From Gossypium raimondii (lineage: Eukaryota > Streptophyta > Magnoliopsida > Malvales > Malvaceae), in NCBI RefSeq assembly GCF_025698545.1, contig NC_068571.1, forward strand, positions 30,723,733 to 30,787,732: DNA of 64,000 nt, in the 5' to 3' direction. This document shows positions 1-64,000 of this stretch, one piece after another. The notes under the pieces were generated by a model, which was given only the letters and a program-made list of their open reading frames with translations, made no database searches and was not told the origin of the DNA. The position numbers and the translations under genes are program-made. Numbering within the stretch: position 1 is the stretch's first letter; every line of letters starts with the position of its first letter.

Positions 1-1792
1 TTGATTTAAATCACAAGATCGAACCATAACAATATAGATATATATAATCTAAAAAATAGAAATTGGGAATAAAGTTATATCGAAATTGTGTACTCATAAG
101 TAGGCAGAAATCCGACTAGTAGTTGAGGCATGTTTTCACAATTTTCTTAAGATAGATTCAGCCGCTTCTTTGGTACTGGAGAAACGTTGGTCAGCTGCCT
201 CTTAGGATACAACAACGAGATGAGTATGGTAGTAGCACGACTGCAGTGATCAACACACTGTAGCCTAGCTTTCTTCTATCATCGAAAACAAGTTCAAAAT
301 ACGCAGGGAAAAGATCTCGAAATTTTTGCAGGAAAAATAGAGAAAAATCTAGTGTATATATTCTCCTGCAGATTATTTCGGTTTAAATAAAATATTCAAA
401 ATGGAAGAACTTCTGAAAATTTTGACTAATGGAGTCATTAACGTCTGTGAATTAAAGAGCCATTAAAAAAACCCCAAATTAACATATGAACTAAAGGAGC
501 TATTAAACTCAATTTAACATTTGTCTTTTTAATTCTAAACAGAATTTGAAGAGATAAGCTTTGAGGAAAAATAAATTTATGTATTGGGTTAAAATATCAG
601 CAGGCCTAGAAGGGACCGACCGGTTCGAACATTTTGTGTTGTGCGGGTGTGCCCCCAACCCCGACGGGTTTGGATTTGCACTCCTACACGCGAGGGAGAG
701 TATTAGTTTAGTCATTTAATAACCACCAAGTTGGTTCATATATATATAAACATATTACACACTTGATATCTAACCAATGTGGAACTAAACTTTCCATTTT
801 CCTCAACATAATTCACAAGTGGCTTACTTTGAGTATCAATTTCTCATTCATCACTCAACCATTTTGAGCACATAATATACCGTTGTAAAGGTCTCATGGG
901 GTAGAATATAAAATCATAGTTTTATGATTCAAATCTCCACCTTTGCCAATCGAGAATATGCCTCAACGCTTCCAAAAATATATTTTTCCAACAATAAAAA
1001 CTTAATTTAGAGAAAGATTTATACTAGGTTATATCACTTTTTATAATACGTAAATTAAGTAAAAATAATATAAAATGTAAAATATATCACCTTTATTAAA
1101 AGGTTTTATAAATTATCCAAAACTTTCATAACATTTCTTATAAATAATATAACTTTTGCCATAAGTTTAAAAAGTTATTTTTTATAAATAAGCTATGATA
1201 AAACTATAACATTCTTTTATGAGTAAGTATATTATTAAGTATGTTATTTTATAATATATAACATGGATATAAATAAGTTATGTCCATACTTCTTGGACAT
1301 AGCTTTTTATAAATAAATATATTATAACATACGTAACATGTAAATTATTTTTATAATAAACTTTTTGACCATAACTTTGGAAACTTTTTAAGATTTAAAT
1401 AATATAATTTTTTATAACTTTATAAATTACAAAATTATTTTTATAATATAATTTTTAAGATTTAGAATATAATTTTTTATCATAACTATCCCAAGCATTC
1501 ATACGTGTTCATGCTTATAATATATATCTTTTATAATTGTTATAAAATATTTTAAAAAATTGTATTTAAGTGTAATTACATATGTAATTACTTCAATTCT
1601 CACCGTCTAAAAATCAGAAAGTGTAATTTGGATGCTCAATTACACCCAATTTAGTTACAATGGTTACTCAAACTTGCCACTCTTACGAAATTACAAGCAG
1701 ATGTACCCAAATCCAATTACTAGAAGCCTTTCCAAATACTACCTTAATGTTACATGAAAGTTAATATTAAATTAACCTAAAATGAAGTACTC
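1..1792. other. AT-rich intergenic DNA, no gene recognised
   Basis: I find no convincing coding exon or RNA gene here. Roughly 1020-1560 is very AT-rich, with many related short motifs built from ATAACTTTT and TATAATATA, probably decayed repeat DNA. A less AT-rich patch at about 600-700 could be the edge of an old transposon, but I cannot assign it. Confidence 0.5.
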
Positions 1793-1795
1793 TTA

Positions 1796-2728
1796 GGCTC
1801 CGTTTGTTTCACTGAAAATGGCTTCCGGAAAATATATTCTGGAAAATGACTTACTTTTCTAGAAAAACTAAAATTTTCTGGTGTTTGAATGAATTTGTGT
1901 AAAATATTTTCTTTTGTTTGGCAGGTTCTTTAAAAATATTTCATAAAGGTCGTTTTCAATTAAACAAACATACATTTGAGATTTTTTATTTTTCATTGTT
2001 TAATTGAGTTTATTTTATATCTATAATTTTATATTTTACATTGTTTTACATATATTAAAAATATTTTGTTAAATTTAGGTTCATTGCAACGATCATTTTT
2101 ACTTACATGACTATCAACTAAGCATTTTTTATTTAAAATGTGACATTAACAAAATTGACAAAAAAAATCAACAATGTCGTAGTTAGACTTGATTTTCAAA
2201 TCTGGAAAGTAGAGGACTAAATTCTTGAAAATAAAAGTACAGAAACTAAATTGCAAATTTGTGAAGAGTATATAGTCTTATGACATATTTTAACATTTAT
2301 ACTACAAAACATTTATTATTAATATATTTATAATTGTAATAAATATTTAGTATTAAAATTAATATTGTTATTTTCAATAATATGTGAATAATATTATTTT
2401 AAAATTTACTATTAAAATAAAATTTAAATATTAAATAATTTATTAAAAATAATAAATTATATCAATTATATTAATAATTTATTATATAATAATATTAAAC
2501 TTTATTTAAGTTAATTTTTATATAAAAGTAAAATTATCTATTAAGGAGCTCTTTTCTGGAAAATAACTTACGCTTTTCAAAAGGGTAAGTCATTTTACAA
2601 GGAAAATGCTTATTTTCCGTTGACCTGTAAGTCATTTTCCGTTGACCAAACTGTTTTCTGTGAAACAAACATAAGAAAATGCAGAAAACATTTTCCGTAA
2701 AACTTTTTACATGTAAACAAACGGACCC
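1796..2728. mobile_element. PIF/Harbinger-type non-autonomous element (MITE), 933 bp
   Basis: The ends are inverted: the left begins GGCTCCGTTTGTTT and the right, reverse-complemented, begins GGGTCCGTTTGTTT. Both sides are flanked by TTA (1793-1795 and 2729-2731), the 3-bp target duplication typical of PIF/Harbinger elements. Subterminal regions are rich in GGAAAAT/ATTTTCC motifs in both orientations. The centre is AT-rich and non-coding, so any mobility must have been driven by a transposase elsewhere. Confidence 0.8.
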
Positions 2729-2731
2729 TTA

Positions 2732-3816
2732 GTTTAATTTCCCCAACATCACGCATGTTCCCATATTTGGTTGAGCTAGCTTACATCCCGACTTATTTGA
2801 GTACTTACGGATTTGGATCAACTAATAAGCCTTGGCTTTTGAAAATAAAAATGTATTTGGGCATCTTTACATCTTCGATCACACATTAAATGAATCATTT
2901 TCGAACATTGTCCACTCTTTTGATAACGCTCCAAAATTTTGCATCAATCTTAATATATTTTGGTAATACTTCTACTCGTATCGTACGATAGAATAGGTAA
3001 GGTGGGTTATGAAAAGTATTTAGTTGGTACTTTAACTTGTATTCCGTCATTTAGGTTGGTACTTTTGTAGGGGCGAAGCCAGAAATTTTGTTAGGGGGCA
3101 AAATTAAATTGTAATTTTTACTATAGTAAAAATGTAATTTTTAAAGGATTAAATCAAGATTTTATTATTTTAAGGGGGTCAAAGTGTAATTTTACCTTTA
3201 CTAATTTAAAATTTTAAAAATTTTAAATAGTCAAAATGGAAAATTTTAGGTGAAGCCGGGGCCCCTGCCAACCCTCTAAATTCGCCCATTGTACTTTTGC
3301 ACTAACACCATTACTTTGAGCTGATGTGGCACTAATAGCCAATCTAGTGGTAACATGTGGTAGCTTCTCAACATGCCACGTGAAAAACCTAAATAAAAAA
3401 TATTTAAAGATATATAAATTAATAAAAAAATGTAATTTTTTGACATCAATAATGAACTTGGACAAATGTTCATTTGAATCTAGACATTAATTTGTCTAGA
3501 TTCATTCTAGATGTGTTTTTTAGTAAGTTGATATAATTTATTTTTGTCATAAAATATTAGTTTTTTTAGGTTATTATTGTTTTAAAAAATATATATAAAT
3601 GATATATTTATAAAAATATAAAATATACACAATTACAAATATATAAAAAGTCTATAATATTTCGGAAAATGTATGAAAATTAATAATATGTAACATATAA
3701 ATTTATAAAAGACCTAAATTTAAAAATAATTTAAAATTGATAAATTTAAAATTATAAAAATATATAGATATATAAAAGTACTAAAAAGACTATCTAGAAT
3801 GAATGTAGATAAATAG
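2732..3816. repeat. Left arm of an older inverted-repeat DNA element
   Basis: From about 3030 to 3480 this strand matches, in inverted orientation, the sequence right of the gypsy element (about 16480-16640). Shared landmarks in order are a CACTAACACC/GACTAACACC stretch, a TGTGGCA motif and an AACATGC motif, then a run of TAAATTAATAAAAAAAT. The gypsy element at 3817 evidently inserted between the two arms. The outer ends and target duplication are not clear by eye. TCTAGA-containing motifs near 3478-3512 and 3790-3812 recur around 23265-23345. Confidence 0.55.
3068..3290. mobile_element. Mutator-type MITE, 223 bp, 9-bp TSD
   Basis: The short element begins TAGGGGCGAA, and its right end read in reverse begins AATGGGCGAA. 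It is flanked by identical 9-bp copies GTACTTTTG (3059-3067 and 3291-3299), the duplication length expected for Mutator-like elements. It sits inside the left arm of the older inverted-repeat element and interrupts sequence alignable to the right arm. No coding capacity. Confidence 0.7.
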
Positions 3817-5037
3817 TGTATAGCCCAAATTTACCCGGGGCCCAACAAACCCAAACTTAAACCTAAATAACCCAATAACCAACCTAAAACCCAAATATAA
3901 CCCAACAAAATTAAACCTAACACCCTAGCCCAATTATCAAAACCCAATCAGCCCAAATCAGAAAACAACAAAAAAGTAACCCTAACCCTAGGTGCGCCGC
4001 ACCTAGGGTCGTCCACTTGCTCTGCCGCCGCCCTAGCCCACAGCCACCGTCCCATCCGCACCTGCTCTCTGCCTCTACCATCGCCAGTCTCCTGCGAACA
4101 CACAACAAAAATCAACAAGACAGTAGCAAAAAGAGATTTCTTTTTCTTTTCTTTCGACTATAAAGCCGAATATTGTAAAGGAAATGGGGGATTTTTTTTG
4201 AAATAAAAAATAGAGAAAGAAATTTGTTTTTGAAAGGTGTTTATTCGCTCTATTTATTTTTATTTTACAAAGAGATCTGAACAAAATAAAAAAAAAAAGA
4301 AAAAGGAGAGGTTTTACCTATTTTCGACGGTGGTGGAGAGAAAGAACCGAAAGGTTTCTCTCACTTTCGGCCCGATTTGTCGAGATCTCGACGTTTCTAG
4401 TCCCAAAACGGGACTCCTCGTGAAAGGGCGCTTAGAAAATGCACTTTTAGTTTAAGCACGGCCACCAAACAGCAGCGTGACAGCATTGCCATGATGGTCG
4501 TGGCCAAGCCTTCGCCGAATTTTAGGCTAAGAAAGAAGGGGGAGAGCATTTTTTTGTTTTTTTTTTTTTGAGAAGGAAAAGAATGAAGTTCTTTGTCAAA
4601 AAAATTGAATTTTGTAGGCCCCCAAAACGACGTCGTTTTGGGACTGACCTCAAACGCCCAAAACGACGTCATTTAGCCCCTCAACCCGCGCATGCGACCT
4701 AACCCGCCAGAGGATCCGCTCGTTTTCTACTTTTGGGCTATTTTCGTGCGCGGTCCTTCCACTTTTACAACGTGTTGCGATTTGGTCCTTTTTCTTTCTT
4801 TTCTTTTATTTTAATTTAGCCACATAGTTTTAATTCTGTTTCATTTTAGTCCCACACAAAGTAATGCGTTTTGGAGGGCGGGATATTTACTATTTTGGTC
4901 CCTCTATTTCATTTGCGCACTCAATATAGTCCTTTCTTTTAATTATTTTCGAATCCGCCCCATATTTTTCATTTTTAATTCAATTTAGCCCTTTTTTGTT
5001 ATTTTGGTTATTTTATTATTAAAATCAATAAATTTGA

Positions 5038-5082
<45 letters not shown>

Positions 5083-6450
5083 TACTATTACTATTATTAT
5101 GTATATCTTTTAATTCCAAATTTCATTATATATATACATACATATATTCTTCGATATTTTACAATTTTATGTATATACACATACTTATATATTTTTATAT
5201 TTTATAATTTATATACATATCTATATATCTATATGCATATTTTTTCATTTTCATAAATGTATATATATATTCTTATATATATTTTTATATTTTATAATTT
5301 GTATATACATATATATCTTTTATATTTTTATAATTTTATTCATTTTCTCTATTTTTTATTTTTTATTTATTTACGTTTTCATTATTATTTTGAAAGAATG
5401 TTTTATTTTATTTGCTTATACTTGTTATTCGCATGTTATTAATTTGTCCTTTTTATTCATTCATTTTATTGTTGTTGTTCATATTATTTTTATACTATCG
5501 TATTCTATATTGCTTTGTACGAGTATTAATATCGAGTTTTGTTTTTACTATTTCATGTTAGATTAATTTTATTCAATGCATAAATTATGATTTTTGAATA
5601 AGCAAAATCTCGTGTTTAGATTTGAGAATGTCGTACCCTAACTTACTAGGTTTCGATTTTCACAATAAATCTAAATACACGAATCTTTTCAAACTCAAGT
5701 TTTAAACGATCTCCAGAATTAAGAAAAGATCGTGTCCTAACTCACTGGGCATGATCTCCTTTTTTAAAATCCGAGATAGCCAAATATTTTCTTGAATAAG
5801 TAAACTTTTCAGCATGTATTCTCGTATCGGGAATTCAATACGTTGTGTCCTAACGCATTGGATATGACATGTCGTTTTCTCGAGATGAGGATTTTTTTAA
5901 AATAATAAAGACAATATTTTGCATTTGGAAATTTAAGAAAACGTGCCCTAATGTGTTGGGTTTCGATTTTTCGTTTAGCCAAATAGCCTGATATCCTTTT
6001 AAAATTTCAAAGTATGGGTTTTGGAACCATAGGACGATCTTGGTTTTGAAGGTTTTAAGTATTGTATCCTAACGTGCTGGATGTGATATTTTTTCAGAAC
6101 AAGAGAATCCTAAATTCCAACCCATGTTATTCAAGTATTTTTAGGATCATATTTTTAAAACTCTTCAAAGTTTTCAATCTCCGACATTAAGACATTAATT
6201 AATCAACTAGGTACCAATTTTGGGCGTTACGAGGGTGCTAATCCTTCCTCGTATGTAACCGACTCCCGAACCCGTTTTTCTGAATTTTGTGGACCAAAAT
6301 CGTTGTTTTAATTAAATTGTTTATTAAAAACAACCACTTTTCAAGGTGACCCGATCACACCTCATCAAAAAAGATTGGTGGTGACTCCCATGTTTGTTTT
6401 TATTTTTAAAATCTAAGTCGACCCCGTTTTATCAAAAAATGGTGTCACCA
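3817..6450 (+). repeat. 5' LTR of the Tat/Ogre-like element
   Basis: The 2634-bp LTR begins TGTATAGCCC and ends GGTGTCACCA. It contains a perfect 11-bp-arm palindrome around CCCTAGGTGCG (about 3987-4009), the 18-bp palindrome CAAAACGACGTCGTTTTG (about 4623-4640), a (TTA)n microsatellite at 5038-5100 and five spaced CCTAAC...TGG hairpin motifs between about 5635 and 6090. A block at about 4454-4511 does not match the 3' LTR although the flanks do. Confidence 0.92.
5038..5100. repeat. (TTA)n microsatellite in the 5' LTR
   Basis: About 60 bp of near-perfect TTA repeats with a few C interruptions. The matching tract in the 3' LTR (about 14837-14879) is shorter, so length has changed since insertion or between templates. 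Confidence 0.9.
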
Positions 6451-6453
6451 GTT

Positions 6454-6472
6454 TGGCGACTCCACTGGGGAC
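6454..6472 (+). other. Primer-binding site of the gypsy element
   Basis: TGGCGACTCCACTGGGGAC lies three bases after the 5' LTR. It starts with TGG, complementary to a tRNA CCA end, and resembles the tRNA-Arg-type site described for Ogre/Tat elements (family knowledge; the exact tRNA was not checked). A related TGGTGACTCC/TGGCGACTCC sequence also occurs inside the end of the LTRs. Confidence 0.75.
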
Positions 6473-7636
6473 TTAAAAAGAGAGTCAAGCTACGTGTTGA
6501 TTACTTTTTGTCTTTTTGTCGAAAATCGAGAATTTGATTTAAATTTACGATCCTTTCATTGTATTTCATTCGTCTTTATTACAATCTTCATCATTGTAGT
6601 TTTATAATTGTAATGTTGGTTTAAGTTTTGATGTATTTCTGCACACTGCATTGCATGACCGTTGGTCACACCTTTTTAAGTGGGAGTGAGAAGCTACTCC
6701 TTCGTAAGGTTTTCGCCTCCGTGCAGGATAGCGAATTGCTCTCGGGATATATCTGTACCTATGTCTTCGTGAGATTTTCATCTCTGTGTAGCCATAGGGA
6801 AATGTATTCCCCTGAACTGAACTCGGTCCATATGAGCCTATAATGGGTGAGGATCAAGGAATTTGCTGGTTCAGGTACCTTTACTTTAGAACCGAACCGC
6901 ATATAGTAAGGCCTAGGAGCCTACCCTAGGTAGAACCACGTCAAAACCCTAGTGCTCACCCGAATAGGTGCTTTATTTTTTTTTCTTGCTTGTTTTTCTT
7001 TTGTACTAACCTATTTTCTTTTATTTTGGGTCATAATTGCTTTGCATTCTCATCATAAAAAAGAGGTGTTGATTCAAATTTGATTGCTAAATAGAAAATC
7101 TTGTAATGGAAAACGAATTTCTTGATAAAATGGAATATAATGCGACTGCCCGAATATGGTCTGATTAAACACAACAAGAGAAGGCTGAAAGTTCGTGGAG
7201 GAATATACGACTATGCTTCGCTGCTTGAGGATTCAAATCGACAAATATTATTCGAGAGCTATCACGTCTCAAAGAAACTAAATAGCATTGCGGGGTGATC
7301 AATGGGTCATGGTTCGGATCAAACAAAAAGGAGATAGTAGAGACAGATTTTGGAAAATTCACAAGATTTGATACTAGCATCCATATATGAAGAAAAAGAT
7401 TGATGTTTTCGCCTGGAATATGAGGGCAAAGCCGCATATGTAATCTGTTTTATATAAAGAAATTTGTTTGTCAGAAAAGTTGTTCTGATGGAATTGAATT
7501 CAGAATCAATGTCTCTCTTTCTTTTTGCATTCATTCCATACATTTGCATTACATTGCATCATATGCATTAGATTTTCACAAAAGGACCCTAATTAGGTAA
7601 AATTATTTCAGTTAACCTGGAAACCAACAAGAGTCA
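6473..7636 (+). other. 5' leader of the gypsy element, no clear gene
   Basis: The stretch between primer site and gag shows no domain I recognise. Short ORFs occur on both strands but none is convincing. Some Ogre-type elements carry an additional ORF before gag; I see nothing here that I would call one. Confidence 0.5.
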
Positions 7637-9525
7637 ACCAATCGAACATCACTACGGTACCCGTCTCAAGACAAAAGTAATGGATCAGAGGTTAGAAATA
7701 TTGGAACAATTGCAAAAGGAGATTCAGGATCAGATGCAGGAATGATTGGATAAAATCCAACAAGACATGCTAGAATCTTAAAAAAACTATGATGAGTCAA
7801 TTGGCGTAGTTATTGGCGGGAGGGAATGATAAAGGAAAAAGCCATGTAGTTTATTCTGGGGTTGGTCATGAGGACTCTGTTTATCCTCTAGGTTTCACCC
7901 CGACAAGCACCCAGGCATAACCAGATATGTGTCCGCAAAGAATACCTGTCAATATTAGACCTCAATATCAGGCTAGTGCCTCGATACCAATGTACTTTCA
8001 AATGGGCTTGGGTTCTAATCCCGGCGATAACCATACCAATCTTCTGGTTCATGATCTCGATGACGTGGCAGAAATAGAAAAAGCAAGAATGGACCTACCA
8101 AAACAACTTGAGGACCGGTGTAGATGGATAGAGGAAAAATTTAAAGCCATGGAGAACATCGACTACCATTGTGGAGTTGACACCAAGGATCTGAGTTTGG
8201 TCCCTGATTTAGTGCTCCCGCCTAAGTTCAAGATGCCGGAGTTTGAAAAGTATAACGGGACTAGTTGTCCTGAAGCTCATATCACTATGTTCTATCGAAG
8301 GATAACAGGATACGTCAATAATGATCAACTGTTAATCCACTACTTCCAGGACAGTTTGATCGGGTCGGCTGCCAAATGGTACAACCAGTTAAGCCGTGCC
8401 AATATTCACTCATGGAAGAACTTGGCACAGGTTTTCATGAAGCAATATGGCCACGAAATAGACATGTCACCTGACAGAATTACACTGCAGAACATGGAAA
8501 AGAAGAAAAGTGAGAGCTTCAGATAATATGCCCAAAGATGGAGAGAGGTAGCGACACAAGTCCAACCACCTTTTCTGGAAAAAGAAATAATGATGCTTTT
8601 CATTAACACTTTAAAGGCCCCATTCATTAACCACATGTTGGGAAGCGCTATTATGAGCTTCTCAGATATGGTAATGTCTGGCGAGATGATTGAGAACGTC
8701 ATAAGAAGTGGGAAGATAGACGCGGGAGAAAGCGCCAAAAGATCAACCCTAAAGCACAAAGAAAATGAAGTGAGCAACCTAAGCTTGTATAATAAAGGAT
8801 ATTCAAAATCAGTCACTGTAGGCCAGCCAAGGACGGTAGCTGCTAGCTATCAAGGCCCCTCAAGGCAAGAATCTAACTCGAGGCCAAATACAAAAAGACT
8901 TCAGTTCACACCTATCTCAATGACGTATAAAGAACTGTATCAGAATCTGTTTGATGCACATGTAGTAGCTCCGTTCTACTCAAAACCCATGCAACCTCCA
9001 TACCCTAAATGGCACGACGTGAATATCCAATGCGAGTATCACGCAGGAACTACGGGGCACTAGATTGAAAACTGCACTACATTTAAAAATTTAGTCGAAA
9101 GGTTCATTAATATGGGCATCGTGAAGTTTGACGATCCATCTGGACCTAATGTGTCAGAAAACCCGTTACCTAGTCATCCAGACCCAGGAGTAAAGGCGAT
9201 AATTGAGAATGGAGGAAAAAGAACCAAAACCAATGTTGCAGAAATAAAAACCCCACTAAAATGGGTTTTGAAACAAATGATGAACATGAGATTAACCATT
9301 CAGAATTTGGAGAAGAGACCAAAAGGGATGAGGAGCTACTATGAGTTCTACGCTGAAGAAGGCCATGAAATCCAAGAGTGTGCTGAATTCAAAACCTTGG
9401 TGCAAAGTCTAATGGATAATAAAGAGTTAGAATTCTTTGAAAAAGTCAAAGGCCCGGAAGGAATGTTGGGGAATTTGAACATTAATACTGTATCCGAAGA
9501 GGGAGCCGGGAAAGAAAATTTATGA
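7637..9525 (+). pseudogene. gag: gag of the Tat/Ogre-like element, decayed
   Basis: Capsid/nucleocapsid precursor of a Ty3/gypsy element. The reading frame is recognisable in three long open pieces (about 7927-8526, 8590-9063 and 9112-9525), preceded by a broken N-terminal part rich in Gln (about 7680-7920). The central piece carries the retrotransposon gag core, including KFKMPEFEKYNGT and HYFQDSLIGSAAKWY, followed by a QYAQRWRE-like helix just after the TAA at about 8524. C-terminal Cys/His clusters (QCEYH...GH...ENC and EEGHEIQEC) look like the nucleocapsid part. Stops at about 7747, 7779, 7819, 7918, 8524 and 9061 and small shifts interrupt it. Several stops sit where CAA, CAG or TGG would be expected, consistent with C-to-T or G-to-A decay. 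Not functional as it stands. Confidence 0.9.
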
Positions 9526-13622: not shown

Positions 13623-14837
13623 TGTACAGCCCAAATTTACTCGGGGCCCAACAAACCCAAACTTAAACCCAAATAACCCAATAACCAACCTAAAACCCAA
13701 ATATAACCCAACAAAATTAAACCTAACACCCTAGCCCAATTATCAAAACCCAATCAGCCCAAATCAGAAAACAACAAAAAAGTAACCCTAAACCTAGGTG
13801 CGCCGCACCTAGGGTCGTCCACTTGCTTTGCCGCTGCCCTAGCCCACAGCCACCGTCCCATCCGCACCTGCTCTTTGCCTCTGCCACCGCCAGTCTCCTG
13901 TGAACACACAACAAAAATCAACAAGATAGTAGCAAAAATATATTTCTTTTTCTTTTCTTTCGGCTATAAAGCCGAATATTGTACAGGAAATGAGGGATTT
14001 TTTTTAAATAAAAAATAGAGAAAGAAATTTGTTTTTGAATGGTGTTTGTTCGCTCTATTTATTTTTATTTTACAAAGAGATCTGAACAAAATAAAAAAAA
14101 AGAAGAAAGAGGAGAGGTTTTACCTATTTTCGGCAGTGGTGGAGAGAAAGAACCGAAAGGTCTCTCTCACTTTCGGCTCGATTTGTCTAGAACTCGGCGT
14201 TTCTAGTCCCAAAACGGGACTCCTCGGAAAGGGCGCTTAGAAAATGCACTTTTAGTTTCTCCCCGGCGGCGCCGGCGACAGGCGGCCGCCACGGTGGTCC
14301 AGCGCCGAAGCTTTCGCCTGATTCTGGGCTAAGAAAGAAGGGGGGAGAGCATTTTTTTGTTTTTTTATTTGAGAAGGAAAAGAATGAAGTTCTTTGTCAA
14401 AAAAATTGAATTTTATAGGCCCCCAAAACGACGTCGTTTTGGGACTGGCCTCAAACGCCTAAAACGACGTCGTTTAGCCCCTCAACCCGCGCATGCGACC
14501 CGATCCGCCAGAGGATCCTAGCGTTTTCGACTTTTGGGCTATTTTCGTGCGCGGTCTTTCCGCTTTTGCAACGTGTTGCGATTTGGTCATTTTTCTTTCT
14601 TTTCTTTTATTTTAATTTAGCCGCATAGTTTTAATTCTGTTTCATTTTAGTCCCACGCAAAGTGATGCATTTTGGAGGGCGGGATATTTACTATTTTGGT
14701 CCCTCTATTTCATTCGCGCACTCAATATAGTCCTTTCTTTTAATTATTTTCGAATCTGCCCCATATTTTTCGTTTTTAATTCAATTTAGCCATTTTTGTT
14801 ATTTTGGTTATTTTATTATTAAAATCAATAAATTTGA

Positions 14838-14870
<33 letters not shown>

Positions 14871-16225
14871 TATTATTATGTATATCTTTTAATTCCAAAT
14901 TTCATTATATATATACATACATATATTCTTTGTATTTTTACAATTTTATGTATATACACATACTTATATATTTTTATATTTTATAATTTATATACATATC
15001 TATATATCTATATGCATATTTTTTCATTTTCATAAATGTATATATATTCTTATATATATTTTTATATTTTATAATTTTATATACATATATATCTTTTATC
15101 TTTTATAAATTTATTCATTTTCTCTATTTATTTATTTATTTATTTATGTTTTCATTATTATTTTGAAAGAATGTTTTATTTTATTTGCTTATACTGTTAA
15201 TCTGCATGTTATTAATTTGTCCTTTTTATTCATTCATTTTATTGTTGTTGCTCGTATTATTTTTATACTATCGTATTCAATATTGCTTTGTACGCGTATT
15301 AATATCGAGTTTCGTTTTTACTATTTCATGTTAGATTAATTTTATTCAATGCATAAATTATGATTTTTGAATAAGCAAAATCTCGTGTTTAGATTTGAGA
15401 AGGTCATACCCTAACTTACTGGGTTTCGATTTTCACAATAAATCTAAATACACGAATATTTTCAAACTCAAGTTTTAAACGATCTCCGGAATTAAGAAAA
15501 GATCGTGTCCTAACTCACTGGGCATGATCTCATTTTTTAAAATCCGAGATAGCCAAATATTTTCTTAAACAAGTAAAATTTTTTAGCATGTATTCTCGTA
15601 TCGGGAATTCTATACGTTGTGTCCTAACGCATTGGATATGACATGTCGTTTCTCGAGACGAGGATTTTTCTAAAAAATAATAAAGGCAATATTTTTCGTT
15701 TAGAAATTCGAGAAAACGTGCCCTAATGTGTTGGGTTTTGATTTCTCGTTTAGCCAAATAGCCTGATATCCTTTTAAAATTTCAAAGTATGGGTTTTGGA
15801 ACCATAAGGCGATCTTGGTTTTGAGGGTTTTAAGTATTGTATCCTAACGTGCTGGATGTGATATTTTTTCAGAACAAGAGAATCCTAAATTCCGACCCAT
15901 GTTATTCAAGTTTTTTTAGGATCGTATTTTTAAAACTCTTCAAAGTTTTCAATCTCCGACATTAAGACATTAATTAATCAACTAGGTACCAATTTTGGGC
16001 GTTAAGAGGGTGCTAATCCTTCCTCGTACGTAACCGACTCCCGAACCCGTTTTTCTGAATTTTGTGGACCAAAATCGTTGTTTTAATTAAATTGTTTATT
16101 AAAAACAACCACTTTTCAAGGTGACCTGATCACATCTCATCAAAAAACATTGGTGGCGACTCCCATGTTTGTTTTCATTTTCAAAACCCAAGTCGACCCC
16201 GTTTTATCAAAAAATGGTGTCGACA
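13623..16225 (+). repeat. 3' LTR of the Tat/Ogre-like element
   Basis: The 2603-bp LTR starts TGTACAGCCC and ends GGTGTCGACA. It is co-linear with 3817-6450 apart from a shorter TTA tract and a GC-rich block at about 14259-14312 that replaces unrelated sequence in the 5' LTR. It keeps the CAAAACGACGTCGTTTTG palindrome (about 14426-14443) and the repeated CCTAAC...TGG hairpins. Confidence 0.92.
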
Positions 16226-46771: not shown

Positions 46772-49700
46772 ACATGTGTAACAGCCCGATTTTGAGTCGA
46801 GTCGGAATAGTGGTTTTTGGACCACAAATCCGACGAGGAAAAATGTAATGGCCTAAATTTTTAGAGGTGTCGGAACGGTGATTCCAGATCACTAAATTCG
46901 ACAAATGAATAGAAAATATTATTAATTTAGTGAGTATAAGTTAAATGTGAAGTTAGGAAAATTTTTGAAATGGTGAATAGTGCACTAGAAATAAATATTA
47001 AAATAATTAGAATAAAAAACGAGATATCGAGACCTCAGAGATTTTAAACCGAGCCATAAATATTTTTATAAATATTTATGGAGTGTTAAAAAATTAGTAT
47101 TAAAGTTTTGTTAAGAAATTTTAAAGTTCCAATAATTAATTGAACAAAAAGGACTAAATTGTAATAATGCAAGATTATGGGAAATGATTAAATAGCTTAA
47201 ATGATAAAAGGAAGAGAGCTTAAAAGGAAAATAGACCCAAGGTCTATTTGGGCTGGACGGCAAAGGTACAAAATCAGCAAGAAAATAAGGAGAATTAAGG
47301 GCAAAATTGGAATATTGCAAAATTTACTTAATAAAGCTAGGATTGAAGTGGAATTATCTAGATTTCTCTTTATTTTTCTGCATTCTCATCAGCTAAAACA
47401 CCATAGAAACGTTTCCTTAAGCTGTTTCTTCATATTTTTACTACAAGTAAGTTCAATTCTTGATTATTTCTTGGAATTTTTGTGTTTTTGTGACTTTTAC
47501 AACTAGGCCCACTTGTTGTATTCATTAATTTTTGATTCTATGAAAGAATTTGAAAGTTTCTATGAATACATGCTGGAAGTATATGATTATTTAGCATGGA
47601 ATTAGAGCTTTAAATTGTTCATATGCTGATTTTATTGAAAGAATTGAATAGAAAGTGAATGTTTGAGACCTAATAGTAAAAGAGTTTGAAGTTAGGGTTA
47701 TATGTGGAAATTCTGAATTTCAATAGTTTTGAAATAACTTATAATGTCTAGGTAAAGTAATAATTGAGAAAAATTAGCTTAATTGAGCAAGGACTGAATT
47801 GTATGAACTGTGAAATTTGGGGCAAAATGGAAATCAGCATTTTGCACTAAAACAGTTTTGGACAGCAGCAGTGGTTTAACTTTGAAAAATCACCAAAAAT
47901 TGTGGGAAGTGAATTATAGGGTGAATAAAATATGAAATTTAAGCTTATTGAGTCTAGTTTCTCATAGAAGAAACGGTGTAAGTAATGGAATTGTAAATTA
48001 TGAGATATTATAAATTTTGTGAGACAATGTCAGAATGATTTTGGGTTCCCCTGTTCTGACTTTGGAAAATTATAAAAAATTTAAAAAAAACAATTATGAG
48101 TTATAATTTATATTTTAGAATCCTTATTGAATCTATTTTCAAAGGAAACAAACAGAAACATCATCCAAATTATGTACAATTAGATAATTCATTTTTAGTG
48201 AAGAGTGGTCGGAACTATCTGATAGCGAAACAGTGGAAACTTTAAAAAATAAACTGTAATATTTGGCTAAACCAAAATTCTAAAAATTTTATGGTAAGAA
48301 GATATATGAGTCTAATTTCATGGAAAATTAACGGATCTTAATTTGGAGCTCTGTAGCTTCGGATAAAAATAATTTAGTGACTTTGACTCGGATAAATAGC
48401 TTTGAATATACATGTGAGTGAATAGTAAAATTATAGTTAATGTTGTTTAAGTTTGTTATACACATTAAGGATGTGGAATGGAGAGGAGGAGGAGGAAAAT
48501 TGGGAAATATATGAATGATTTATGTATAATTGGTCATATGCTTGATTATAATTGATAAACGATGAAATAAAAATGATGCTTATATTTATGCATTATTGGT
48601 CATGGTTTAAGCTCATGTGTGAAAATAAAGTTTCATAGTATGTGTGTATGGTATATTCGGTATATGATTTGGCATGAAATAATGTCATGAATGGTTTATG
48701 AATTAACATATGTTGGTAAGTGTGATACATGAATAAATGTTGTGCTCATCCATGCTTATAATGCTTATGCTATATGTGTATTTGGCTAACATATTTGGTG
48801 TACATGCTTAGGCTTTGGCTAAGTAGTGGCTAGATTATGCCACGTTAAATTTATAAGTTATGCATTGAAATGGTAAGTGCCTAATTGAAAATATGCTTGT
48901 GATCATGAAAAGGGTGGTAAGTTTTAAATTATGTAATCTCTAGTGAAATGGTTTATCATGTGGTTAGTTCAAAAAAAGAATTATGTTTAAATACACTAGC
49001 TTGCGACTATGGTTGAATGATATGTTTATATCTTGTGTGATGTGCATAGGAAACGAGTGTGGAAAGGTAATGAAATAGTAAGTTCATATGGCTAAAATTT
49101 AATGATTAAATGTTAATTTCACGAATTATATAGTATATGATGATATATATTTGTTGATAGATTGAGAATAAAATAACAGTACGAAAAACCGAATAAATGA
49201 TCAAATTGAACGGAACATCGGATTTGAGTACTTCTAATCAGTGACAAGTGATAAGTGGTAGCTTTAGCTACACTTATCTAATCAGTGACAAGTGACAAGT
49301 GATAAGTGGTAGCTTTAAATTGATGCTTCTATGTTAAGACAAGAACGATTCATCTTGAACTGTCATCTTCATTCCTATTAGTATGCTAGTTGATCTTTGG
49401 CTAGAGAGGCATTTCATTTCATTTTCATTTGTGAATTCTGGAAAATGTTTTATCTTATTTCTTTTTTAGAATTTGAAACGTGTTGGAAACACCACACAAA
49501 TTGGGTTGTTCTCTTTCGGTGCTGCTAAAGAATTGACACATCCTCACAGTTTTGTCCCCTGGTTCTAAAGAGAGCCTAGGGGTGTCTCTTAGGTTGCTAA
49601 AGAGCAAATCCAACCTCTATATCATAGAAGTCATGGTTTTTATCCATGCCTTGCACTCTTCAGCACCATAGATTTCCATCATACATCAGTTCTTCAGTAG

Positions 49701-50099
49701 TTTGAGATTCCAAAAAGATAAGCATGTTTGATTGTAAAAAATAGTTTTAGAAATAAAATCAAAATTTAACATTTCTCAAACTCTGTAATTACACAGCTCT
49801 TACATGTCTGCTTGAGATCTAGTGGATAATGTTTTATGGGAAGCAGGACTTTTAAATTGTAATTGCTCACATTTTCTATTATTTACAGTTGTTGTTAATA
49901 AAAGAAGTTGGAACTAGTTTATCCATCTACTAGCACGTTTAGAGAATTAGAGCTATTACATGTGGAAGTTTGAAGTTTCAAATGTTTTCTAAATGATAAA
50001 AGTAAAAGTTTAAAGTTTCAAATGTTTTCTGAATGATTGTATTGCCTTAGTACTATCTGTTGTGGCTAAATAGTAATATCCATGCAATTTGATTTACAG

Positions 50100-50312
50100 G
50101 TGTTGATGGTGGATTTGACAACAATGAACTAGAATATGAAGAAACTCACAAAATAGTCATTTTGCCTAGCTATGAAAATCTTCCTTTTCCATCTGTGGAG
50201 TTGCCTGAGAAGGTATGGATTGTTTCATTTTTTATTTTTAAAGAATTTTAAAATCAGAAGGCTGGCAGTTGATGCTATTTTAATGGCTGAGAGTGCTGAA
50301 CGGAAAGAGCAT
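50100..50312 (+). pseudogene. UBP14: Captured fragment of ubiquitin protease UBP14, two exons
   Basis: Exon A (50100-50212, acceptor TTTACAG, donor GAGAAG|GTATGG) reads as part of the UBP14/isopeptidase T N-terminal region, with EETHKIVILPSYENLPFPS and VELPEK. Exon B (about 50260-50309) reads LAVDAILMAESAERKE, the next part of the same protein. The start of exon B is altered next to its acceptor. UBP14 recycles free ubiquitin chains in plants; this piece lacks the zinc-finger and catalytic regions, so it is not an enzyme. Identification is from memory of the family, not a search. Confidence 0.8.
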
Positions 50313-51300
50313 ATGGGTATTAAGGTGATTTTTTTTAAGTGTTTCTAACTTTTTTTGAATAATTAAATTGGGGTTTTCTTTTATTTGAAATATTGATCGA
50401 TGTTTTGGCATTTGAATTTCATGATTAGGGTTTAACGAAGCTTCTAGCAGACAATGCGCCAAAGGCCATGAAGGAACAGAAATTAGAGAGCTATTTGCCA
50501 TAAGATTGCCATTGACGCCTTGACATGAGCATTTACCAATTTCTCGTTTGTATATTGTTCCCTCGAAAAGAAAAAAAATGAAAGTTTTCTCTTTTATATC
50601 CATTTGAGAGCTAAGACTAACTACTAATGTTTTTTTTTAAATTTTGGGTTGACTGTAGATTGTGGTGGGTCGTATAGGGACTGAAATGCTCACTAATGAA
50701 GCCGGTGAAGTTACCAAGTTTTTAATATATTTTTCTCTTCATTCATTATTTCTTTTTTATCTTAAAGAACTATCGTTAGCTGATTCTTATTTTATTTTTT
50801 TACCTTTTCAATTAAATTTTCATTATTTGGTTCATAAAATGTTTACATGGGTTCTGCTGGCCTAATCCTTAGTCATTTGCAAAGGCATGTTTACTCGGAC
50901 AATTCGGCTGCTTGAAGCTGGGCTTAAACCTGTGTAATGTATTTCTTTCCCTTTTCTTTTCATTTTCCTTAGAAGTTAATTAGTCAGTCATTTTAACACA
51001 GATATTTTCTGCCTTATGTTGCCTATACGGTACCACATCCCAAAGGCCTTTTATTTGCTAATTCTTGTGGTATTTTCTTTCAGCTATGTTTTTTATGGGT
51101 AGCCTCCAGATTTGAAAAAAACAAGAGCTTGCTAAGCGGTACTTTATTGCAAATTATTCAAATTGTCTTTTGTTGGTTTCCTTCAATATGACCTGAGCTT
51201 GAGGAGTAGAATGTTGCTTTTTCATAATTTTATACTAATTTTGTCATGTAGTTACTCAAAGAGGGCAGATGCTACGGAGGATTTGCAAGAAGCCGTGGAG
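50313..51300 (+). pseudogene. FEN1: Captured 5' part of flap endonuclease FEN1, six exons
   Basis: FEN1 removes 5' flaps during replication and repair. Six exons with introns kept: 50313-50324 (MGIK), 50429-50545 (GLTKLLADNAPKAMKEQK...SIYQFL), 50659-50717 (IVVGRIGTEMLTNEAGEVT), 50873-50933 (HLQ...TRTIRLLEAGLKPV), 51084-51138 (YVF...PPDL...ELAKR) and 51252-51300 (YSKRADATEDLQEAVE). This is roughly the first 115 residues, the N-terminal nuclease domain. Damage: stops in exon 2 (about 50503), a one-base gain in exon 4 near 50880, a TAG in exon 5 at about 51100 and an extra A near 51120. The first Asp of the active site region (IAIDAS) is lost by the exon 2 damage. The ATG joins the UBP14 fragment in frame. 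Confidence 0.88.
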
Positions 51301-51852
51301 GTATTTTTCTTTGGTCACACATGGAGTGATAAGTAAAGTTTTCTTTTGTTGTTTCACCACTACGGAAAATTAAGGTGCTGTTGTTTTTAAATAAGGACGA
51401 CATTGAGAAATTAAATATGTAGCCAAAATTTTGTCACCTGTCAGTAATAGATACTCGTAGAGTTCAATCAATTCAACGCTGTAAGAAAAGGGAAGCATAT
51501 GTATAATAACCGTGTATTGTAGTACTGATTTTTGTTATATATTATTGAAAAGAATATATGTTCTTTTCCCGTATAATGAAATTTATTTATTTATATATTG
51601 TTAGGAAATTTAATTGTTTATGTTAACATTATATGCTATATACATTATTTTTATATACTAATGATCTATAATTAATTAAATAATATAATCAATTTAAAAT
51701 AAGGTTAAAGTGTAAATTTGTTGCCATATTATAGGTGAATGATGAAATTTATTACTATAATTTATTTTACTTTTATTGTTAATGAAAAGTAATACATTCA
51801 AAATAAAAATTGACCTTTCTATTTGTTATTATAAAAATTCATTTAATAAAAA

Positions 51853-52180
51853 TGCTTTTAGTGGCTTTTTTCATAAACGCCACTAAAGAACGGTACTTTT
51901 AGTGGCGTTTGCGATAAAAGCGCCACTAAAGGTCATGCTTTTTAGCAGCGTTTGTGAAAAAAGCGTCGCGAAAGATCATGTCTTTAGCGACGTTTTTTGG
52001 GTAAAGCGCCGCTAAAGGTCATGTTCTTTAGCGGCAATTTTTATAAAAACGTCGCTAAAGGTCTTTTTCTTTAGCAGCGTTTTTATAAAAGCGCCGCTAA
52101 AGGTCTTGTTCTTTAGCGGCGTTTTTTGCGGCGCTTGTGGAAGTGACACAAATACTTTTAGCGCCGCTAAAGGCCTAAAA
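51853..52180. repeat. Subterminal hairpin array of the CACTA-type end
   Basis: About seven units of 38-45 bp, each an imperfect hairpin of the form CTTTAGCGGCG...CGCCGCTAAAG with a T-rich loop. Such subterminal repeats near CACTA termini are transposase-binding sites in En/Spm elements (family knowledge). The array lies on the right side only; no counterpart is seen after 51358 or 49318. Confidence 0.8.
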
Positions 52181-52971
52181 AATGCTGCTAAAAACCTATT
52201 TTGGTGTAGTGGTGGTAGCTTTAGCTACACTTATCTGATCAGTGACAAGTAACAAGTGATAAGTGGTAGCTTTAGCAACACTTATCTGATTAAGGACAAG
52301 TGAGAAGTGATAAATGTGATCTGTGTAAGACCGTGGCAGTGCTAAGGCTCCGAAAAGTGATAAGTGATCATATGCAAGGCCATAGTTATACTATGGCAAA
52401 GTGGAAGTGAAGTACTCAATTTTCCATAACCGTTCCCTAATTTGATTAAGGATGGTAAGTGACAAATGGGCCCAAAAGAATTAAAGTAAATGGATAAGTG
52501 GTAGTGTATTTATACCAGAATGATGTTGTTATTTAAGCTAAAGTGATATTTTCATTGCAAAATTGAGAATTTCATAAATGTGTTAATGAATGGTATAATC
52601 GATAAACGTTGAGTTAAATGGTAAATCCGTATTAGTGTTAAACTTAGTGACATTGAATTGTAAGTGAATTAAATGGAAATTGCTAGTGATATGATTTAAA
52701 TTGTGAGCATGAGCAATTGCGGATTGAATGAAATGGAAATGAAGCATTGAATTGCATGAGTATGTATCGGGTCTCGTAGGCCCTATTTATTAATATTATA
52801 ATATTTTGAGGATATATTGTGAAGAGTTATAAAAGCATGTTAATAATTTTGAAAGTTTTAATTTAGATGAAATTTTATAACTCGGTTAAATATGTTCACA
52901 AGTGTATGTGTTTTGGTAATGCCTCGTACCCTATTCCGGTGTTGGATACGGGTAAGGGGTGTTACAACATG

Positions 52972-60571: not shown

Positions 60572-61114
60572 TCACCTCATCCTCCTCCGGTCCGCAGCGT
60601 GCTGAGACAAAGGCACGATTTCCGACAAAGGCGTAGAAAGCGGAGTTGGAAGCGGCGAGTTCCGACAAATGGGACAAGACCCATTAAGTTTCAACCAAGC
60701 ATCCAGACAAGAAACATGGAAATAATGCCTACACTCAGGCATCATCCTCAACATCTCCAAATCCCTATACTCGCATAAACAAATCGAACACGTCGTGTTA
60801 ACGTTAGTAGAACCCACAGCAGCAGCCTCTTTAGTGAACTGGAACTTGGGGTATGAGTTTATAACGGCTTGATCGAGCCCAACGACGACGTTCTCATCGT
60901 CCTCATCTTCAGCAACGAAAACAACCCGGGGAAGGATGATTCCATCGGAGACGGGGGTAGGGTTGGGAGAAAAAGAGGAAGAAGGACGGCAGCATATGTA
61001 GGAAGCGAGGAGGACGATGGAGAGGAGGACAAGGAAAGCAAGGGCAATGGCGATGGAGTAGCCGAGGCCTAAGTTGGTGAAATAGAGAGGGGAAGAATGG
61101 GAATGGGTGGACAT
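60572..61114 (-). CDS. ATL67: RING-H2 finger E3 ubiquitin ligase, ATL67-like
   Basis: Membrane-anchored E3 ubiquitin ligase of the ATL family; it transfers ubiquitin from an E2 to unknown targets. Single exon, 180 aa, as usual for ATLs. Features in order: a hydrophobic membrane segment at residues 17-40 (LGLGYSIAIALAFLVLLSIV), a basic/Ser-rich linker, an acidic patch (AEDEDDEN, 69-75), the GLD motif at 79-81 (VVVGLDQAVINSYPKF), and a RING-H2 domain with zinc ligands C109, C112, C128, H130, H133, C136, C147 and C150 and the E2-contact Trp at 140. The C-terminal PLPTPLSTPLSEIVPLS tail is characteristic of ATL67. The ATG at 61114 gives the expected length. A CT-rich leader precedes it on the - strand. 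Intact. Confidence 0.95.
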   Translation of the reverse strand: MSTHSHSSPLYFTNLGLGYSIAIALAFLVLLSIVLLASYICCRPSSSFSPNPTPVSDGIILPRVVFVAEDEDDENVVVGLDQAVINSYPKFQFTKEAAAVGSTNVNTTCSICLCEYRDLEMLRMMPECRHYFHVSCLDAWLKLNGSCPICRNSPLPTPLSTPLSEIVPLSQHAADRRRMR

Positions 61115-61325
61115 TTGAGGAGAGGAATAAGAGAATCCATTTGATTAAGGAAAAAGAAGAAAAAGAAAACGGAAAAGAAGGTGGGGGAGATTTAATGCTC
61201 CAGCTGCAGCATTTATTTACTCACTTTCCAACATTTATTTCTGCGTTCTAAATTACAGAGGGTTCAAATAACTTCAATTTTAAATTACCAACTGACGTAT
61301 ATTAGCCATTTCCTTTTATCATTTA
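61115..61325 (-). promoter_or_regulatory. Probable promoter/leader of the ATL67-like gene
   Basis: On the - strand a pyrimidine-rich stretch (about 61140-61190) lies just upstream of the ATG, with a TATA-like GTAAATAAATGC (about 61209-61220) before it. A transposon begins about 210 bp upstream of the ATG, so the native promoter is short or has been altered. Inferred from composition only. Confidence 0.4.
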
Positions 61326-63200: not shown

Positions 63201-64000
63201 TGTAATAGCCCGATTTTAGGCTTAGTCGGAACAGTGGTTTCGGGACCACAAATCCGACGAAAAAAAAAATGTAATGGCTTGAATTTTCAGAGGTGTCGGA
63301 ACGGTGATTCGAGATCACTAAATTCAAAAAATGGGTAGAAAATATTATTAATTTAGTAAGTAAAAGTTAAATATGAAGTTAGGAAAATTTTTGAAATAGT
63401 GAATAGTGCACTAGAAATAAATATTAAAATAATTAGAATCGAAATGAGGTATCAAGACCTCGGGATTTTAAACTGAGCCATAAATATTTTTATAAATATT
63501 TATGGAGTGTTAAAAGTTAGTATTAAAGTTTCGTTAAGAAATTTTAAAGTTCCGATAATTAATTGAACAAAAAGGACTAAATTGTAACAAATGCAAAATT
63601 TTGGGAAATGATTAAATAGCTTAAATGATAAAAGGAAGAGGGCTTAAAAGGCAAATAGACCCAAGGTCTATTTGGGCTGGACAACAGAGGCATGAAATCA
63701 GCAAGAAAGTAAGGAGAATTAAGGGCAAAATTGGAAAATTGCAAAATTTGCTTAATAAAGTTAGGACCCAAGTGGAATTATCTAGATTTCTCTTCATTTT
63801 TCTGAATTCTCATCAGCTAAAACACCATGGAAGGGCTTCTTCAAGCTGGTTCTTCATATTTTTATTACAAGTAAGTTCAATTCTTGACTATTTCTTGAAA
63901 TTTTTGTATTTTTATGACTTTTACAACTAGGCCCACTTGTTAAATTCATTAGTTTTTGATTTTATGAAAGAAGTTGAAAGTTGATATGAATATGTGCTGG
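63201..64000 (+). repeat. Start of a second gypsy LTR (same family as 46777), cut by the window end
   Basis: Starts TGTAATAGCCCG and runs parallel to 46777-47580 with roughly 90% identity by eye. Whether this is a solo LTR or the 5' end of a full element cannot be seen here. Confidence 0.88.

Follow-up and report, generated by a model that had tools for sequence, protein, structure and literature searches.

Fragments of unlinked genes in a probable left-truncated Pack-CACTA element within a solo long terminal repeat of Gossypium raimondii

The window analyzed here, a 64,000-nucleotide stretch of Gossypium raimondii DNA, contains a solo long terminal repeat (LTR) that is split by an insert. 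The insert carries pieces of the ubiquitin protease gene UBP14 and of the flap endonuclease gene FEN1, and its right edge is a terminus of the CACTA type. An initial annotation, made from the letters of the DNA, had described the two genes as captured together at the DNA level in a CACTA-ended insertion flanked by a 12-bp direct repeat. The features of the locus are listed below in window positions; contigs are numbered with C and examined loci with L.

46777..52966, plus strand: host solo LTR, TGTAACA...TGTTACA, split by the insert and bounded by a 5-bp duplication
49233..49317, plus strand: minisatellite units of the LTR on the left side of the insert (about 44 and 51 bp), with GTGGTAGCTTTA twice
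49313..49317, plus strand: CTTTA, 5-bp microhomology at the left junction, present both in the LTR and in the sequence from which the 387-bp fragment derives
49318..52211, plus strand: the insert, a probable Pack-CACTA copy without its left end
49318..49704, plus strand: 387-bp fragment with no gene identified, matching C8:44126810-44127194 (96%; Kimura two-parameter [K2P] distance, 0.032)
49723..49894, plus strand: 172-bp intron fragment of a mitochondrial ATP synthase subunit gene (C11:58812135-58812307, 96%)
49893..50311, plus strand: UBP14 fragment, with an exon at 50100-50212 and a partial exon at 50258-50311 (donor, C8:2245631-2246130)
50307..50317, plus strand: UBP14/FEN1 fusion point GAGCA-T-ATGGG, in frame
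50313..51412, plus strand: FEN1 fragment with introns retained (donor match, C10:49362504-49363619)
50313-50324, 50429-50545, 50659-50717 and 50873-50933, plus strand: FEN1 exons 1 to 4
51084-51138, 51252-51300 and 51390-51412, plus strand: FEN1 exons 5 and 6 and part of exon 7
51413..51857, plus strand: AT-rich element sequence right of FEN1, common to the family
51858..52194, plus strand: right subterminal region with GCGGCG/CGCCGC hairpin units at 43-bp spacing across 51874-52148
52195..52211, minus strand: right terminal inverted repeat (TIR), CACTACACCAAAATAGG
52212..52214, plus strand: GTG, the putative surviving half of the original 3-bp target-site duplication, judged from the duplications of relatives

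Translations of the FEN1 exons, read across breaks with X at gaps, matched Pfam XPG_N (2.2e-25) and flap endonuclease 1 structures (2.3e-39). Among 120 FEN1 relatives compared, only four Gossypium proteins shared all 26 of 26 residues of exons 1 and 2; for FEN1 exon 3 (18/19) and the second UBP14 exon (16/17), another plant was one residue better than Gossypium. All six 5' splice sites of the window FEN1 read GT, and five of the six 3' sites read AG, the remaining one being deleted; some of the exon limits were set by hand reading of the sequence. The 57-amino-acid UBP14 peptide had no match in Pfam and matched USP5 weakly (E, 0.0017), but its two exons agreed with the Gossypium UBP14 protein P0158 at 36/38 and 16/17 residues, respectively. 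For the 172-bp fragment, the joined translation of the exons around its source on C11 matched Mt_ATP_synt (4.6e-48). These sequence matches uphold the two UBP14 exons (the second partial) and six FEN1 exons of the initial annotation, together with the start of a seventh FEN1 exon and the retention of introns. The description of a two-gene insert held for UBP14 and FEN1 and fell short of the full content, since at least two more pieces are present, the 172-bp ATP synthase intron piece and the 387-bp fragment.

The joins between these pieces can be read closely. The ATP synthase piece and UBP14 overlap by 2 bp in our own reading of the sequences, and UBP14 (GAGCA) is joined to FEN1 (ATGGG) through one extra T. 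The mosaic junctions look like products of end joining or template switching, in a sample too small to name the mechanism.

Donor loci were sought across the window's own genome (750.8 Mb, 281 contigs), with the best 40 of 2852 candidates scored and all counts being lower bounds. The UBP14 piece matched C8:2245631-2246130, and the locus there (L028) is the UBP14 gene, P0158 aligning to it in ten pieces over most of residues 1-509. The FEN1 gene spans C10:49359646-49363502. With UBP14 at 2.25 Mb of C8 and FEN1 at 49.36 Mb of C10, the two genes are not neighbors, so that the adjacency which might have accounted for their pairing does not exist. Among Gossypium protein names, FEN1 leads to A10/D10 and UBP14 to A08, which agrees with C10 and C8 provided that contig numbers follow the same scheme. 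The sole full-length match to the 387-bp fragment elsewhere in the genome was C8:44126810-44127194, accompanied by partial matches. This source (L027, about 4000-4300) adjoins an inverted copy of part of itself, forming a hairpin of which the window insert holds one arm only. A second FEN1-like locus (L032, C13:35553399-35555601) has in-frame stops in several search matches and is possibly a FEN1 pseudogene.

The same arrangement of gene pieces recurs in the genome. The search gave 115 matching pieces, from which 20 regions were taken, and seven of the copies were extended leftwards. The fusion sequence GCATATGGGTATTAAG was found exactly in 8 of 48 loci examined, one of which (L001) is the window's own place and two of which (L002 and L009) are one place. 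This gives seven places on six chromosomes: C7 (the window), C4 (L009), C5 (L022 and L024), C11 (L023), C10 (L025) and C1 (L026). Neither the UBP14 donor nor the FEN1 donor carries GCATATGGGTATTAAG, and both read differently there. Since the same fusion lies at seven places, it was not made at the window site. The junction between FEN1 and the element tail is also conserved in position in 15 of 17 aligned copies, five of which (L022-L026) have a small gap at that point; of the other two, L014 has it deleted and L020 is only partly covered.

These copies have the termini of a CACTA element. Six of the seven left-extended relatives (L016, L018, L022, L023, L025 and L026) are bounded by CACTA ends on both sides, at total lengths of about 5.9 to 7.6 kb, whereas L024 showed no left CACTA end within the stretch examined. 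Five of the six two-ended relatives are flanked by matching 3-bp duplications (GTC, ATT, GTA, CCT and AAT), and three of these five carry the UBP14/FEN1 fusion. One such match has a chance of 1 in 64. For L026 the chance doubles to 2 in 64, because right CACTA ends lie at both 8413 and 8462 in extended coordinates, 49 bp from each other; a matching duplication accompanies only the outer. At their left ends the relatives have the subterminal sequence CACTACACCAAAACAGGCTTTTAGCGGC or close variants, so that subterminal repeat arrays occur in this family at the right end of the window copy and at the left ends of relatives. No transposase domain was found in Pfam at an E value of ≤1 among 13 open reading frames (ORFs) of ≥75 amino acids from L023, L025 and L026, a set in which one ORF was trimmed (67 of 76 amino acids) and one was joined to part of its neighbor; a transposase broken into smaller fragments could have escaped this search. 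These data bear out the CACTA-type terminus of the initial annotation (right end at 52195-52211, hairpin repeats at 51874-52148) and answer its call to look for other copies and other insertion sites, the fusion occupying seven places and the 3-bp duplications differing between copies. DNA-level co-capture of UBP14 and FEN1 by CACTA is likewise supported by the unlinked donors, the seven fusion places and the relatives' termini and duplications.

Taken together, the block in the window very probably belongs to a non-autonomous Pack-CACTA family that carries fragments of unlinked genes, as a copy whose left end is missing. The ancestral element would have brought together, between its ends, pieces from three or more unlinked genes (an ATP synthase subunit intron, UBP14 and FEN1), introns included. 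The capture step itself may have been the repair of an excision gap with template switching, or neighboring insertions may have fused. The element would then have been moved by a CACTA transposase supplied in trans, and one copy may have inserted into the solo LTR at GTG. Its left end, along with one or more LTR minisatellite units, would later have been lost by end joining at CTTTA. As for the 387-bp left fragment, it may stem from an earlier capture, or it may be filler that came in with the loss of the left end.

Several observations weigh against this account. The left CACTA terminus that the initial annotation proposed to look for was not found in the block at 49318-52211, being present only in the relatives: no further matches to CACTACACCAAAA occur inside the block at ≤3 mismatches, and the looser consensus CACTACRMSAAAA matches within it only at 3 mismatches. 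The right flank of the window copy, GTG, has no matching left flank, and the window copy thus has no 3-bp target-site duplication. The 387-bp fragment was in no other copy found, and part of the block may thus come from outside the mobile unit. Among the relatives, nine (L009-L012, L014, L015, L017, L019 and L020) have no left end in the part covered, their left flanks being unextended, and in L009 the right CACTA end was also not found at up to 2 mismatches. L022 (extended coordinates 1720-8698) has both CACTA ends with nonmatching flanks, TTC and AGA; it is perhaps a recombinant between two copies. A candidate for an internal left TIR in the window, CACTACGGAAAAT at 51358, was rejected as ordinary FEN1 intron that is present in the donor.

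The initial annotation regarded the 12-bp repeat as a nonstandard duplication whose mechanism was open. The repeat is indeed exact and flanks the block, with GTGGTAGCTTTA at 49306 and 52212. The same word occurs again at 49255 and 52263, giving four occurrences around the insert, as this part of the host LTR consists of tandem units of about 44 to 51 bp. Insertion into such a minisatellite array means that the apparent direct repeat needs no duplication mechanism. The host LTR itself has a 5-bp target duplication, ACATG, at 46772-46776 and 52967-52971. In insert-free related LTRs (L043-L047, the five best among 88 matching pieces, the window's own excluded), the minisatellite has 4, 3, 4, 2 and 4 units, and 12 units are present in the LTR of L038 that starts at window position 63201, compared with 3 around the insert. 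This variation, from 2 to 4 and up to 12, by itself separates neither truncation nor a 12-bp duplication from the other. The L038 sequence is a second LTR of the host-LTR family, running from 63201 to 64000 in the window, ending in L038 (1-2356) and having no insert.

Because the LTR supplies the 12-bp word, the left junction has the CTTTA microhomology and relatives make 3-bp duplications, the simplest reading is a deletion scar, in which the flanking repeat is a word of the LTR's own minisatellite and the left end has been lost. The repeat is therefore no evidence for a new mechanism. The strongest alternative is that a linear fragment with a CACTA end only on its right entered a 12-nt staggered break, fill-in of which produced a true 12-bp duplication. 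Such a one-ended insertion would account for the exactness of the repeat and for its start precisely at the CACTA terminus. Moreover, counting the repeat once leaves 200 bp between LTR anchors, within the 149 to 251 bp of related LTRs. We nevertheless consider it unlikely, since a word native to the array is expected to flank the insert without duplication and since five of six two-ended relatives make 3-bp duplications; the CTTTA microhomology, though possible under one-ended insertion too, fits a deletion scar. More generally, caution is called for where an insert lies in an LTR with a minisatellite, as its flanking repeats can pass for an unusual target-site duplication.

The remaining alternatives concern how UBP14 and FEN1 came to lie beside a CACTA end. 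Both could be filler copied into the window site while a break at a CACTA element was being repaired, and filler DNA is documented at plant transposon excisions (PMC4423477). The 387-bp left fragment might have this origin, but for UBP14 and FEN1 the presence of the same fusion at seven places refutes it and makes it highly improbable. Helitrons have TC...CTRR ends and make no duplication. Capture by a Helitron or a Mutator-like element (MULE), with a small CACTA element merely inserted alongside, could find support in L009, which has CACTACAAGAAAA between FEN1 and its right side. The common form there is CGCTGCAAGAAAACGG, however, so that the change in L009 is later, and in three fusion-bearing relatives outer CACTA ends and 3-bp duplications enclose UBP14 and FEN1. 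These outer ends refute the proposal and leave it a very slight chance, although Helitron and MULE ends themselves were not searched for. The sequence CACTACAAGAAAACAG at the same position in L009 was rejected as an internal left TIR, as the aligned copies share CGCTGCAAGAAAACGG. Last, segmental duplication of a normal locus with neighboring UBP14 and FEN1, for which no point in favor was found, is refuted to near certainty by donors on different chromosomes, a junction inside coding exons and a CACTA end bounding the block, in keeping with the mobile unit proposed at the outset.

Different members of the family hold different genes. L022-L026 contain UBP14, FEN1 and part of the ATP synthase piece, and L016 and L018 have the FEN1 part only, starting in intron 4. 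The L025 element (extended coordinates 798-8385) has RPAC1-like exons that were not found in the other six extended elements. Other unidentified gene-like ORFs lie left of the UBP14 piece in L025. A 65-bp part of the 172-bp fragment also has a 100% match at C8:29686039, inside L048 (C8:29683000-29690000). L048 is a further CACTA element whose right end is of the family's type, and the stretch of the ATP synthase subunit gene in it measures about 740 bp. Since L048 carries this piece, different members hold different subsets, and L048 suggests that captures were stepwise. Capture order could be readable from such copies.

The divergence of each piece from its match or donor was compared. The values were 0.032 for the 387-bp piece, 0.036 for the ATP synthase piece and, for FEN1, 0.033 in the window copy and 0.010 to 0.044 in other copies; UBP14 diverged by 0.027 to 0.033 in five relatives and by 0.057 in the window copy. 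As the 387-bp piece is no different from the others, age decides neither for its early capture nor for its late addition. Relative to the donor, the window FEN1 has 15 differences in 373 exon positions and 23 in 719 intron positions, and its exons contain one stop and 11 indel bases. Exons thus differ about as much as introns, and judged by its sequence this FEN1 looks as a neutral passenger would. The L009 copy differs from the donor at 10 of 380 exon and 21 of 732 intron positions, with no stop and no exon indel; its splice sites read GT in six of six cases and AG in five of six, one acceptor AG reading AA. The family keeps the UBP14-FEN1 exon fusion in frame (...ERKE-H-MGIK...). That it might serve as a transcribed exon-shuffled chimera, or as a source of small RNA against the donors FEN1 and UBP14, is an improbable suggestion from sequence.

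Pack-CACTA elements of Arabidopsis, rice and maize have CACTA ends that enclose host gene fragments, which may come from several loci; of the Pack-TYPE elements, maize Pack-CACTAs contain the largest number of distinct loci (PMC8903248). The cotton family likewise has CACTA ends and gene fragments and differs in host and donors; unlike those elements, the window copy is without its left end. A total of 140 CACTA-mediated capture events were found on wheat chromosome 3B, with 17 genes potentially from exon shuffling (PMC4290129), and CACTA capture was also described in Chenopodium (PMC8978399). Some of the wheat captures are transcribed and under selection (PMC4290129), whereas the cotton FEN1 appears neutral. 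Two models of capture have been published, fusion of neighboring insertions (PMC8903248, PMC13317346) and repair with filler DNA (PMC4423477, PMC3445842).

In the accessible text on GrTEdb, 275 CACTAs are listed for Gossypium raimondii, of the same superfamily as the cotton family and from a close or identical host; non-long-terminal-repeat and DNA elements were identified there via transposase similarity, and neither "captured" nor "gene fragment" occurs in that text (PMC5467567). In the accessible literature on Pack-CACTA, Gossypium CACTA or the TIR string, we found no cotton UBP14-FEN1 element, which is no proof of absence. The family adds a good new case to a known phenomenon, and we take the window copy to be a truncated derivative of it. 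As an instance of gene capture the family is traceable: the donors are named, the breakpoints are resolved almost to the base, and there are full-length copies, a truncated copy and relatives with differing fragment subsets. With this set of copies, captures can be placed in order and models of CACTA gene acquisition put to the test.

Elsewhere, the window gave no Rfam match at gathering score. Positions 3817-6446 and 13623-16221 form a 2.6-kb direct repeat pair that is 93.5% identical, likely the two LTRs of another retrotransposon. On the minus strand, positions 60572-61144 hold a 190-amino-acid ORF that is RING-finger-like by eye.

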